DNA of 64,000 nucleotides from Archaeoglobus veneficus SNP6 (GTDB taxonomy: Archaea; Halobacteriota; Archaeoglobi; Archaeoglobales; Archaeoglobaceae): NCBI RefSeq assembly GCF_000194625.1, contig NC_015320.1, positions 790,612 through 854,611 on the forward strand, in the 5' to 3' direction. Numbering within the stretch: the first letter of the stretch is position 1; every line of letters starts with the position of its first letter. The position numbers and the translations under genes are program-made. The notes beneath the pieces were generated by a model, which saw only the letters and a program-made list of their open reading frames with translations, did no database searches and was not told where the DNA came from. Below, piece by piece: positions 9,050 to 64,000 of the stretch.

Positions 9050-10541
<1,492 letters not shown>

Positions 10542-20612: not shown

Positions 20613-20765
20613 AGCTTTAAAGATTGACCAGCGAAAGCGTCCTTCTGAATTGAGACGTTCGTACGTCGCTGGAGAAATCGAATCACCGTTAACTTAAAAT
20701 ACCCATCTGATAACCGCCTCCAAGTCCGTAGGAGGCGTAAGCCGCTGGTACTACGGGGTGATAGA
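20613..20765 (+). promoter_or_regulatory. Promoters and structured leader of the L1-L10-L12 operon
   Basis: Two TATA-like boxes are seen, gctttaaaga (20614-20623) and aacttaaaat (20691-20700). The leader holds gcctcc (20716-20721), able to pair with ggaggc (20731-20736). As an alternative, ccgtag (20726-20731) pairs with ctacgg (20751-20756) around an inner ggc-gtaa-gcc hairpin (20734-20743). The ribosome site ggggtgat lies 3 nt before the ATG and adjoins the second stem. Archaeal L1 is known to repress its own mRNA, so this is a good candidate site. Confidence 0.5.
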
Positions 20766-59734: not shown

Positions 59735-62302
59735 TCAAAGTTTCAGCCTGAGTGTTACGACTTCAAAGGGATTGAGTTCAAGGAAGATCTTGTTGCCCTC
59801 GACTTTAACATCCTTGTCGAACTCCTCGTCTTTTTCCTCTATCATATTCACGACTTCTACTTCCTTTGGTTCTCTGAACAACGTTATCGTAGCTTCTGTT
59901 TCTGTTCCCGAAGCCTCGTAGAACCTCAATATTACACCATTTCCATCTTCTGCTCTCTTTAGAGCTGTAAGTATCACGTTGTCGGGTTCTATCTTTAAAA
60001 ACGACCTTTTAAGCCTGTACTTATTTGATCTCGATAGCTGCAAAGCTATCAGATCGTAGTTAAACTCATATCCCTGCTTGTAGGACTTCGCTTCTACCCA
60101 GTTACCTTCGTGTGGATAGATGGAGTATCTGAACACGTACTTCTTCAGTTCTCTCGCATCTGGAACTGGAATGACGGGCCCTGCCTTTCCGTCGGAAGAA
60201 AGCATATCCACTGACCTCAGGAGAGTTATGTAGATGTCCTCATCCCTCACTTCATTTTCTGGATTTCCTTTGTTTATCACTGTAAGTCCTTTTTCACCGT
60301 CACTGTAGTCTATCCATCTCAGTGTCGGATAGACACCGGAGGGTTGCTCTTTCCAGTCTCTCGGTTTGAAGTAGTACTGGTTTGTCTTCCTCATTACAGC
60401 TCCAAACTGCGTCTCGCAGACGTACTCGGGGCATTTGATGCATGTTGAGAATTTCACTCTTAGTCGTATTCTGGGGTGGCCGTTATCAACGATGGTAACG
60501 AAGTCAATTCTCGGGATATCTCTATAGATGATTACCTTTTTCTTGAAACTTATGAACTTGTGCCTCCATATCATCGGCTTCAGCTTGTCTGTCAGTCTGT
60601 ACGGCCATCTCAAGGAGAAATAATCGGTTTCGATGTTGATAACTCTTCTCAGTGGAGACTTATCTATCCAGAAGTTCTTAACCCTGAAGGAGCCGTATTT
60701 CACACCTTCTCCACTCTCGGTTTTCAGAGGGGTTCCCATGGTTTCCTTGTGATAGTAGAGGTCACCTATTTCCTCTTCGATTACGAGTTCGTTCCCTGTG
60801 CATACCTCCTTCTTTAATGATTCTTCGTCTTTGAACACTTCTATGAGTCCATTCTCTGGAGAAAATCTAACTTTGAAGAACCTGTTCTCGATGGTGTTGC
60901 CAATAACTCTTATGAATCCGTCGCCCCTGCGCTTTGGCTTTCTTTCCATAATCTTGTAAACTTTGTATCCTAATGCTGGAACGTTTGCGACGAAGCCAAT
61001 TCTTGCATATCTTAAAGATTCGTCCTCGTACCTTGTAAATCTTATGACTTCGACGTCTATCTCCTCCTCACCGCATTTAAGTCCCTCTATTCTGCTTACC
61101 TGCCCCTCTTCAAAGTTGAGGTCGACCTCGACCCAGTTTGAAACGTCCCACGAGAGGGGGTTGAATACGATAACGTCTCCGTAATCTTCAGCTTCTGCAT
61201 CCATTTCTGCTATGGACTTTAGAATTCTCGGCATCAGATACGTTAACTGGGTGTCCAGGAATCCTATGTGCTGCCTAACTTCCGCATATCCTGTATCCAT
61301 TCCCGTTCCTGGAACAACATCGTGGAAAGCAAGGAAGAGTATTTTCTTCCAGCAATCCTCAAGTTCTTCGGGGGTGTAACTGTCCATAAGGGAGTAGATT
61401 GTTGCAAACCTTTCAAAGCTCATCAACCAGTTCTCGTACTTTCTCAGATTCTTTTTGAGCCAGATTCTGCTTGAAGCAACGTCCGGGAATATTTCCGAGT
61501 ATTTTCCTGAGTACATCTCACCCCTTCTGATGGGCAACTTGTTTGCATGCTTCTCTATAGCTTTGAAGAACTCTGAAGGTGTAGCAATTTTCATAACGGA
61601 GCGGTGCTTCTTGTTCCAGTTCTCCACAACTTCGACCGTCTCCTCCTGAGGCATCGTAACTCCGCTTCCAGAGGGCATGAGTATGTGATTTGTAGCAGCG
61701 AGTCTCTTCAGCTTCCTGTAGCTGTCTTCAAGCTTTCTTAAATCCAGGCCGGCTCTGTAACCAAGGGGCATGAAGTGGGCAATTATCTTCGTTCCGTCGA
61801 GTCCCTCCCAGATGAACTCGGATGGTTTGTTTTCCGGACAACCACGTCTGAAAGCAACGTATTTGTAACCACACTTCCTGTATATCTGCGGAAGCTGAGC
61901 GTTAAGGCCAAAGCTGTCTGCCTGCCACATTACATTTACATCCACTCCGAACTTCTCCCTGACGAATCTCTTGCCGACGAGTATCTCCCTTATCAGGGTC
62001 TCCTCCTGCGGGAGCATGGTGTCGGCCATGAGGTATTCTCCGTCTGCAATCTCAATTCTTCCCTTTCTGACGAACTCTCTAATCTTTCTGAAAATTTCCG
62101 GATACCTTCTTTCAACCTCTTCCAGGAGGTACACCTGTTCTATCAAAAACTTGTATTCTTTGGTATTTTCGAGCATCTCAATTACTTTCTTTAAAATCAG
62201 GTCTATATTTATGTAGAAATAATCTTCCTTGGTAAACACCCATATAGCGTCATAATGTGTGTGGGGCACGAGATATATCACGTCTGCCTTCTCATTCGCC
62301 AT
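59735..62302 (-). CDS. Glycoside hydrolase family 38 alpha-mannosidase
   Basis: An 855-residue GH38 enzyme. The metal-site segment Pro-His-Thr-His-Tyr-Asp-Ala-Ile-Trp is near the start. The nucleophile region Trp-Gln-Ala-Asp-Ser-Phe-Gly-Leu is at about residue 125. The central three-helix and C-terminal beta domains follow. There is no signal peptide, so it acts in the cytoplasm. It starts after mpgP with ggtgag. GH38 includes MngB, which hydrolyses phosphorylated mannosylglycerate in bacteria, so breakdown of mannosylglycerate is a reasonable guess. N-glycan or other mannoside turnover is the alternative. Confidence 0.85.
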   Translation of the reverse strand: MANEKADVIYLVPHTHYDAIWVFTKEDYFYINIDLILKKVIEMLENTKEYKFLIEQVYLLEEVERRYPEIFRKIREFVRKGRIEIADGEYLMADTMLPQEETLIREILVGKRFVREKFGVDVNVMWQADSFGLNAQLPQIYRKCGYKYVAFRRGCPENKPSEFIWEGLDGTKIIAHFMPLGYRAGLDLRKLEDSYRKLKRLAATNHILMPSGSGVTMPQEETVEVVENWNKKHRSVMKIATPSEFFKAIEKHANKLPIRRGEMYSGKYSEIFPDVASSRIWLKKNLRKYENWLMSFERFATIYSLMDSYTPEELEDCWKKILFLAFHDVVPGTGMDTGYAEVRQHIGFLDTQLTYLMPRILKSIAEMDAEAEDYGDVIVFNPLSWDVSNWVEVDLNFEEGQVSRIEGLKCGEEEIDVEVIRFTRYEDESLRYARIGFVANVPALGYKVYKIMERKPKRRGDGFIRVIGNTIENRFFKVRFSPENGLIEVFKDEESLKKEVCTGNELVIEEEIGDLYYHKETMGTPLKTESGEGVKYGSFRVKNFWIDKSPLRRVINIETDYFSLRWPYRLTDKLKPMIWRHKFISFKKKVIIYRDIPRIDFVTIVDNGHPRIRLRVKFSTCIKCPEYVCETQFGAVMRKTNQYYFKPRDWKEQPSGVYPTLRWIDYSDGEKGLTVINKGNPENEVRDEDIYITLLRSVDMLSSDGKAGPVIPVPDARELKKYVFRYSIYPHEGNWVEAKSYKQGYEFNYDLIALQLSRSNKYRLKRSFLKIEPDNVILTALKRAEDGNGVILRFYEASGTETEATITLFREPKEVEVVNMIEEKDEEFDKDVKVEGNKIFLELNPFEVVTLRLKL

Positions 62303-62304
62303 AA

Positions 62305-63078
62305 TCACTCACCCAAAACGAACTTTTTAACGACCTCAGCCCACCCCTTTGGGCCGATACCATTGGCCCTGTATATGTTCTCAATTTTTAAGTCGGCCCA
62401 CTTTCCGTCGGGGTTTCTTACAATAGCCGGGATATCTACGGCTCTTAACATTGGTTCGTCGTTGTAGGAATTTCCAACGCCTATGGTCGTTACATTGCCG
62501 TACTTTTCTCTGTAAAGGTTTGTAAGAATCCTGACAGCTTTTCCTTTGTCGGCACCTTTGCCAAAAACGTGTATGAATCTCCCACCTATAACGACGTTGA
62601 ACTTCTTTTTCAGTTCCTCAAGCGCTTCCTCGCTCGCTTCAACAACAGTCTCACTGAATTCTCTCTGCTTCGCAAGCTTTGCTTCCTCTATGCTGAGCCC
62701 TGTCACTTCCGCGACCTCTTCAACTGTCATGTGGTGGTAGCCCTTTATGGGGTACCTTTTTCTTACTTTCTCGATCTCCTTTGCGATCTCTTCGAACCTG
62801 ACTCCCAGAATGATGACTTCATAACCATTGATGACTTCACCTTTTCGCTCTCCAAAATAGCCGGCCGGCATGTATACTGCAGAACCGTCCTCCACTATGA
62901 AAGGATGGTATATTTCCATTTTTTTCCTGATTACTTCCTGTTCTGTTCTCGTTTTCGCAGAGCAGAATATTATGGGAACGTTTCTTTCCTTTAGGGTGTT
63001 CAGTACGGGTAGTGCATCGTCATAAGTGTAGTTTTCATCTAACAATGTACCATCCAGGTCTGTAAATATTACGTAGAT
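62305..63078 (-). CDS. mpgP: Mannosyl-3-phosphoglycerate phosphatase, apparent ATC start
   Basis: A HAD-family phosphatase that dephosphorylates mannosyl-3-phosphoglycerate to mannosylglycerate, a compatible solute. With the start I choose it has 257 residues, usual for the family. HAD motif I (Thr-Asp-Leu-Asp-Gly-Thr-Leu-Leu-Asp) is at residues 6-14; the late Gly-Val-Gly-Asn-Ser-Tyr-Asn-Asp-Glu-Pro-Met-Leu is intact. No ATG, GTG or TTG exists between the upstream in-frame stop and motif I. ATC at 63078 lies 3 nt after gaggtgat, the same spacing as rpl1. An in-frame TTG (63045) would delete the catalytic Asp. It is between the synthase and the GH38 gene. Confidence 0.85.
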   Translation of the reverse strand: MYVIFTDLDGTLLDENYTYDDALPVLNTLKERNVPIIFCSAKTRTEQEVIRKKMEIYHPFIVEDGSAVYMPAGYFGERKGEVINGYEVIILGVRFEEIAKEIEKVRKRYPIKGYHHMTVEEVAEVTGLSIEEAKLAKQREFSETVVEASEEALEELKKKFNVVIGGRFIHVFGKGADKGKAVRILTNLYREKYGNVTTIGVGNSYNDEPMLRAVDIPAIVRNPDGKWADLKIENIYRANGIGPKGWAEVVKKFVLGE

Positions 63079-63179
63079 TCTATCACCTCTCCGGCTTTTT
63101 CATCCGGGACTCAATTCTCCTCACCATAATTATCATCTAAAAAAAATAGTATATTAAAGTTGCGCTATCAACGTGATGA

Positions 63180-64000
63180 TTATTCATACTTTACCAGAGT
63201 CTCTGAGTACTCTTCCAGGATTTTCATAAATGAGTTTACGTCAATTTCCTTGATTGGTGGTATTGTAATATTCTTTCTGGGCTTTTCACCCTCTTTCAGG
63301 ACGTTGTTTGCTTTCAGCTCTTCAAGTATCTTGGATTTTAACTGCCTGTCTGATAGCCTGCTGTGGTAGATCGTTGATAAGGAGTCGTGGAGCATGTCTT
63401 TGACGTGCTTCTCCCCCTTCTCTTCGTGAATGTGGGGGTTGAGGGTTTCTATCTGGAATACTTCGATACCAGCACTTGTAGCTTCGCTATATCTGCCTTC
63501 ACCCTTCCAGAACTCTTCAAGTAAGTAGATATACTGGTATGGTTCTATAGAATAGCCCGTTGAGTAGCCCATTATCTCGGCAAGCCTCATGGTCATTGCA
63601 TGTTCGCCTGCATTTCCCGTCTTTATTATGTGGGTCTCGAACCCGGTCTGGGCGGCGAGAAGCAGGTTCAGATATCTGTTAGTTACCTCTGAAACTCTAC
63701 CCCACTTCCTGAAGTACAGCTTGCTCTTCACAATTTTTGGCTTGTGCCTCCAGTGCAATCTGACCATCGCGTATGGTGACTCTGACATACACAAACCGGC
63801 GGCAAAGTCCTTGATGTACTCGTTCACCGCACATGGAACGTAGTTATCTGCATCGACAAAACCAACGTACTCTTTCCCCATGTGTTTCGCGAGCAGCAAG
63901 CCAGCTATCATTCCCTCCGCCTTTCCATCCCTGACGAACCCGTTTTCATCGAGTATGCGGTCGTAGCCCACTTCTTTGAACGCAAGTCCAAGTCCGGGAT
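63180..64000 (-). CDS. mpgS: Mannosyl-3-phosphoglycerate synthase (partial, 5' end outside window)
   Basis: The visible 273 residues are the C-terminal part of a GDP-mannose-dependent glycosyltransferase making mannosyl-3-phosphoglycerate. Asp-Gly-Lys-Ala-Glu-Gly-Met-Ile, the metal-binding Asp-Ala-Asp-Asn-Tyr-Val-Pro and a tail with [10 protein letters not shown] are typical. The frame continues through the window edge. mpgP follows after 101 nt. Confidence 0.9.

Follow-up and report, generated by a model that had tools for sequence, protein, structure and literature searches.

A conserved AUC codon is the probable translation start of mpgP in Archaeoglobus veneficus

A candidate AUC start for mpgP

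Translation of mpgP, the mannosyl-3-phosphoglycerate phosphatase gene of Archaeoglobus veneficus SNP6, most probably starts at an AUC codon at position 63078, a reading to which we assign a probability of about 0.88 on the basis of sequence comparison. The genome is a single contig of 1,901,943 bases, and the window, the whole stretch of 64,000 nucleotides that was analysed, corresponds to its positions 790612-854611. The genes concerned are the following.

63180-64000, minus strand: 3' part of mpgS (mannosyl-3-phosphoglycerate synthase), directly upstream of mpgP; PF09488, 1.3e-123
62305-63078, minus strand: mpgP, coding for 257 aa from the ATC, HAD-IIB mannosyl-3-phosphoglycerate phosphatase
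59735-62308, minus strand: GH38 alpha-mannosidase-like gene, downstream and overlapping the mpgP stop; PF01074, 5.1e-60

In a profile search, the mpgP product matched TIGR01486 over its full length with 242.8 bits (3.5e-72), above the cut-off of 164.75. It also spanned the whole of the equivalog profile TIGR02461, with a score of 241.8 bits that falls just short of the 244.35 cut-off, as do the scores of the other Archaeoglobaceae MpgP proteins except that of G010. Perhaps the GH38 alpha-mannosidase-like gene that follows mpgS-mpgP (59735-62308) has a role in mannosylglycerate turnover. A literature search found no paper on the mpgP start codon and none on A. veneficus mannosylglycerate.

The elements around the mpgP start, and the ribosomal RNA segment with which it would pair, are these.

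63101-63103, minus strand: out-of-frame ATG followed by A5, overlapping the upstream TGA; needs a frameshift to be used and has no counterpart in the sister species
63100-63102, minus strand: in-frame upstream stop TGA; the sister species has TAA nearby
63082-63089, minus strand: Shine-Dalgarno (SD) sequence GAGGTGAT, complementary over 8 nt to the 3' end of 16S rRNA and conserved in the sister species
63076-63078, minus strand: proposed AUC start codon of mpgP, with no canonical codon available, conserved in the sister species and at the modal SD spacing
63043-63045, minus strand: TTG, the first canonical in-frame codon, located after the DLDGT motif
10526-10540, plus strand: 16S rRNA 3' end with the anti-SD, GGCTGGATCACCTCC

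On the minus strand the start region reads TGA AAA AGC CGG AGA GGT GAT AGA ATC TAC GTA ATA TTT ACA GAC CTG GAT GGT, and no ATG, GTG or TTG is present in the mpgP frame between the TGA at 63102-63100 and the catalytic DLDGT motif, exactly as quoted in an earlier note on this DNA that had proposed ATC as the start. The ATC stands 3 nt after the 8-nt SD match GAGGTGAT. In 375 kb of A. veneficus sequence, most ORFs whose SD measures 7 nt or more start 2-3 nt beyond the virtual SD end, and the mpgP ATC lies at 2, the modal value. The resemblance to the rpl1 site to which the earlier note had pointed was borne out: the ribosome-binding site GGGGTGATAGA-ATG at 20755, which precedes the gene encoding L1, carries an AGA spacer identical to that of mpgP, and it differs from GAGGTGATAGA-ATC of mpgP in one SD base and in the last base of the codon.

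Counted from ATC, FTDLDGT, the DxD nucleophile motif, occupies residues 5-11. In the alignment to the solved MpgP structures 1wzc/2zos and 3ztw, residues 2 and 3 of MpgP fall opposite residue 3 of 1wzc and residue 2 of 3ztw, respectively, so that Met1 of the solved proteins lies at most one residue from the ATC, in keeping with the earlier proposal that ATC fits the motif position of the family. The MpgP proteins encoded by canonical mpgP genes, in Pyrococcus/Thermus and in other Archaeoglobaceae, share family and motif position with that of A. veneficus.

In the mechanism that we propose, the 8-nt SD-antiSD helix would hold the 30S subunit and place AUC in the P site, where the initiator Met-tRNA (CAU) would pair with the first two bases and tolerate the mismatch at the third, and MpgP would begin Met-Tyr-Val-Ile-Phe. 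The AUC would have been fixed in the common ancestor of A. veneficus and its sister species, with the weakness of the codon probably offset by the strong SD. A lower yield is expected from AUC than from AUG. A low or regulated yield of MpgP is plausible, and the weak start could hold phosphatase levels under those of the synthase. Folding of the mpgP leader was no better than that of shuffled sequences in A. veneficus and in the sister species, and structure-based control was rejected accordingly; for autoregulation like that of infC, the protein family gives no basis and the leader fold is at the level of shuffles.

Conservation in a sister species and other possible starts

The sister species (G018, QMZF01000002.1, Archaeoglobales archaeon B10_G2) belongs to the same genus, and its MpgP is 79% identical. 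The gene order mpgS-mpgP-GH38 is common to both, the GH38 gene of the sister being identified by the closely similar N-terminal sequence of its ORF; mpgS also lies upstream of mpgP in the other Archaeoglobaceae loci read. The start region of the sister, TAA AAG TTT AGT AGG AGA GGT GAT AAA ATC TAC ATA ATA TTT, has no canonical start and reads AGGAGAGGTGATAAA-ATC-TAC, with SD, spacer length and ATC as in A. veneficus. In the alignment after mpgS, a conserved TATA-like block is followed by about 25 diverged bases and then by the conserved SD-ATC segment GGAGAGGTGATARAATCTACRTAATATTTAC. The ATC is seen in only two genomes, one of them metagenome-assembled, and its third base is weakly informative, as one of five internal A. 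veneficus ATC codons at Ile-Ile positions is also ATC in the sister.

63149-63158, minus strand: TATA-like element TTTAATATAC, in the conserved block after mpgS in the alignment of the two species

The conserved sequence at 63121-63170 of the window, comprising TTGATAGCGCAACTTTAATATAC and GATGATAATWATRGTGAGGA, is probably the promoter and transcript start of mpgP, and the TATA-like element suggests that mpgP may have a promoter of its own.

A sequencing or assembly error, by which the true codon would be ATG or the A5 would really be A4, is the least probable of the other explanations. Deleting one A does bring ATG 63103 into the mpgP frame, but the independently sequenced sister has ATC at the same place, which excludes an error for the ATC, and it has TAA upstream and no equivalent of ATG 63103; moreover, a start at this ATG would put the SD within the coding sequence. 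The earlier note had named a G misread as C as a possible refutation of its proposal and had suggested a check of relatives for ATG: the sister genome excludes the former, and the latter found ATC and no canonical start in the sister. Translation from an upstream start, either ATG 63103 or a small ORF, followed by programmed frameshifting or stop readthrough, is very improbable. While A. veneficus has ATG-A5 and a small ORF that ends at the SD, and in the sister an ATG in frame with mpgP precedes the upstream TAA, the frame relations and the stops differ between the two species, the intervening sequence is unconserved, no shift signal is common to both, and the SD would be left without a role. 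Since ATG 63103 has no equivalent in the sister, use of this out-of-frame ATG is excluded, and both a frameshift from it and an indel in the A5 are rejected on the strength of the sister sequence.

Initiation at a non-canonical codon downstream, GTA 63072 or ATA 63069, has a slim chance, marginally above that of the others. The ATA is kept in both species, but the SD spacing would be 8 for GTA or 11 for ATA against the mode of 2-3, the GTA of A. veneficus is ATA in the sister, and a start at ATA would, judging from the alignment to solved MpgPs, cut the first beta-strand beside the nucleophile Asp. An annotated-style start at TTG 63045, which would give 246 aa from a truncated or decaying gene, is likewise hard to credit: this TTG is the first canonical codon, but it has no SD (a match of 3), and its product is without FTDLDGT and thus without both catalytic Asp. 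The region ahead of the TTG is also conserved family-wide. Between A. veneficus and the sister, mpgP gave pN 0.12 and pS 0.81, with dN 0.13 and saturated synonymous sites; by its sequence, it is an intact gene under purifying selection.

Rarity of the arrangement in the A. veneficus genome

Genome-wide counts were obtained by pattern searches, and more detailed scans were made in a 375-kb sample consisting of the 64-kb window and 311 kb of other stretches of the A. veneficus genome. Genome-wide, GGTGAT-NNN-ATG occurs at 45 sites, GGTGAT-NNN-ATC at 7, and the ATA/ATT versions at 31. Among all 38 GGTGAT-NNN-AT[A/C/T] sites read in context, that of mpgP alone stands at the head of a long gene for which no canonical start is available; the other flagged site is a 63-codon frame without support. 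Of the longer pattern GAGGTGATNNNAT[A/C/T], 749 kb of strand sequence contain just 4 instances. In the 375-kb sample, SDs of at least 8 nt stand in register with 12 ATG, 3 GTG and 3 other codons; besides mpgP, these last comprise a codon followed one codon later by ATG and a codon inside an ORF that has numerous possible starts farther upstream. When 396 ORFs of the same 375 kb were scanned more widely, no gene but mpgP made a convincing case of an SD without a canonical start. The SD-ATC arrangement at mpgP exceeds chance.

Relation to known non-AUG starts

An ATC start has been reported from alignment for L12ae of Staphylothermus marinus (Smar_1096; PMC2678158). As with mpgP, the organism is a hyperthermophilic archaeon and ATC was deduced because no valid start fits the family alignment; the gene and the phylum are different, and whereas mpgP has the same codon in a second species, none is reported for S. 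marinus L12ae in the passage of PMC2678158 that describes it. In Escherichia coli, infC (IF3) starts at AUU and is under translational autocontrol (Butler 1987, as cited in PMC9845219). The two genes would share an AUH start codon and weak initiation, but infC encodes a factor that polices start codons, whereas MpgP is a metabolic enzyme for which an autocontrol loop is not evident. With these precedents, AUC and AUU starts are already known, and mpgP adds an unusually well-supported case. The report that aIF1 discriminates against non-canonical starts in Sulfolobus (PMC6237735) counts against an AUC start.

Non-AUG starts in mpgP and in a control family

Loci of mpgP were collected from 55 genomes of the family, 394 genomes of the phylum, the phylum of a bacterial match, Aenigmatarchaeota and the genome collection. 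Among the rows with a readable motif, 110 of 117 have ATG, GTG or TTG 3 to 20 codons before it. The seven that do not are A. veneficus, the sister, G010 (listed twice), Hydrothermus JdFR-72, G300 and L133. Other Archaeoglobaceae examined (L004-L012) start mpgP with ATG or GTG, and a canonical codon is available in the other genera of f1 except in G010, a more distant family member, which has ATT.

In G010 (L016/L026), mpgP reads AGG GGT GAT AGG ATT AAA AAA, with AUU at the SD distance of A. veneficus and GGGGTGAT-AGG-ATT located 14 nt past the mpgS stop; this gene is a candidate for an AUU start independent of the A. veneficus lineage. The bacterial mpgP of Candidatus Hydrothermus pacificus JdFR-72 (L025/L132) reads AAGGAGAAGCT GTA ATT TAT, with the SD AAGGAG and no canonical start, and probably starts at GUA or AUU, of which AUU is favoured. 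This gene lies close to the archaeal clade, and transfer is likely. G300 (L087) was not counted as non-AUG: its congener G390 (L088) has an ATG two codons earlier and there is a G-run indel, so that sequence error, local loss or a non-AUG start are possible reasons for the missing canonical codon. L133, in which an ATG stands 21 codons upstream of the motif, is ambiguous and was not counted either. In the mpgP tree, A. veneficus groups with the sister in one clade (99/90), and at least three changes are needed to account for the non-AUG state. Elsewhere in the survey, L145 (G596) has a 668-aa open frame around its mpgP match, possibly a fused mpgS-mpgP.

The archaeal phosphoglycolate phosphatase family (TIGR01487), in which the N-terminus before DxDGT is equally short, served as a control and was read in the same way. 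Three of its 70 members are without a canonical start codon, indicating that mpgP is not alone in having non-AUG starts, and a special enrichment in mpgP is unsupported.

In a published ancestral reconstruction covering 61,358 AUG starts, a single switch from AUG to AUU was counted, the listed switches included none to AUC, and SD conservation was stronger at non-AUG starts (PMC5622118). The statement of the earlier note that AUC initiation is very rare agrees with these counts and with our genome-wide check. The difference between the PMC5622118 rate and that of the control may reflect annotation bias, if that published survey relied on annotated starts. Gene finders usually take only ATG, GTG or TTG, and genes such as mpgP are liable to truncation or loss; a truncated call here would equal the form without catalytic residues. 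Our data suggest that homologue-guided surveys would find more such starts. The conserved AUC with its defined SD, together with the AUU parallel in G010, offers a test system for archaeal initiation factors, AUH codons and high temperature. A broader proposal is doubtful at present: that AUC and AUU starts are recurrent and under-annotated in archaea, at about the percent level in the families examined, and held by strong SDs, and that the weak start of mpgP arose at least twice independently, setting phosphatase low relative to synthase.

Two of the three TIGR01487 cases come from different genera of one family (f11) and have GGAGG followed by ATT. In these genomes, G071 (L213/L226) and G080 (L216/L227), no ATG, GTG or TTG precedes the DIDGT motif of phosphoglycolate phosphatase, which probably has a conserved AUU start there. 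The phosphoglycolate phosphatase gene L207 (G060) has no canonical start and no obvious SD, and its relatives have ATG.
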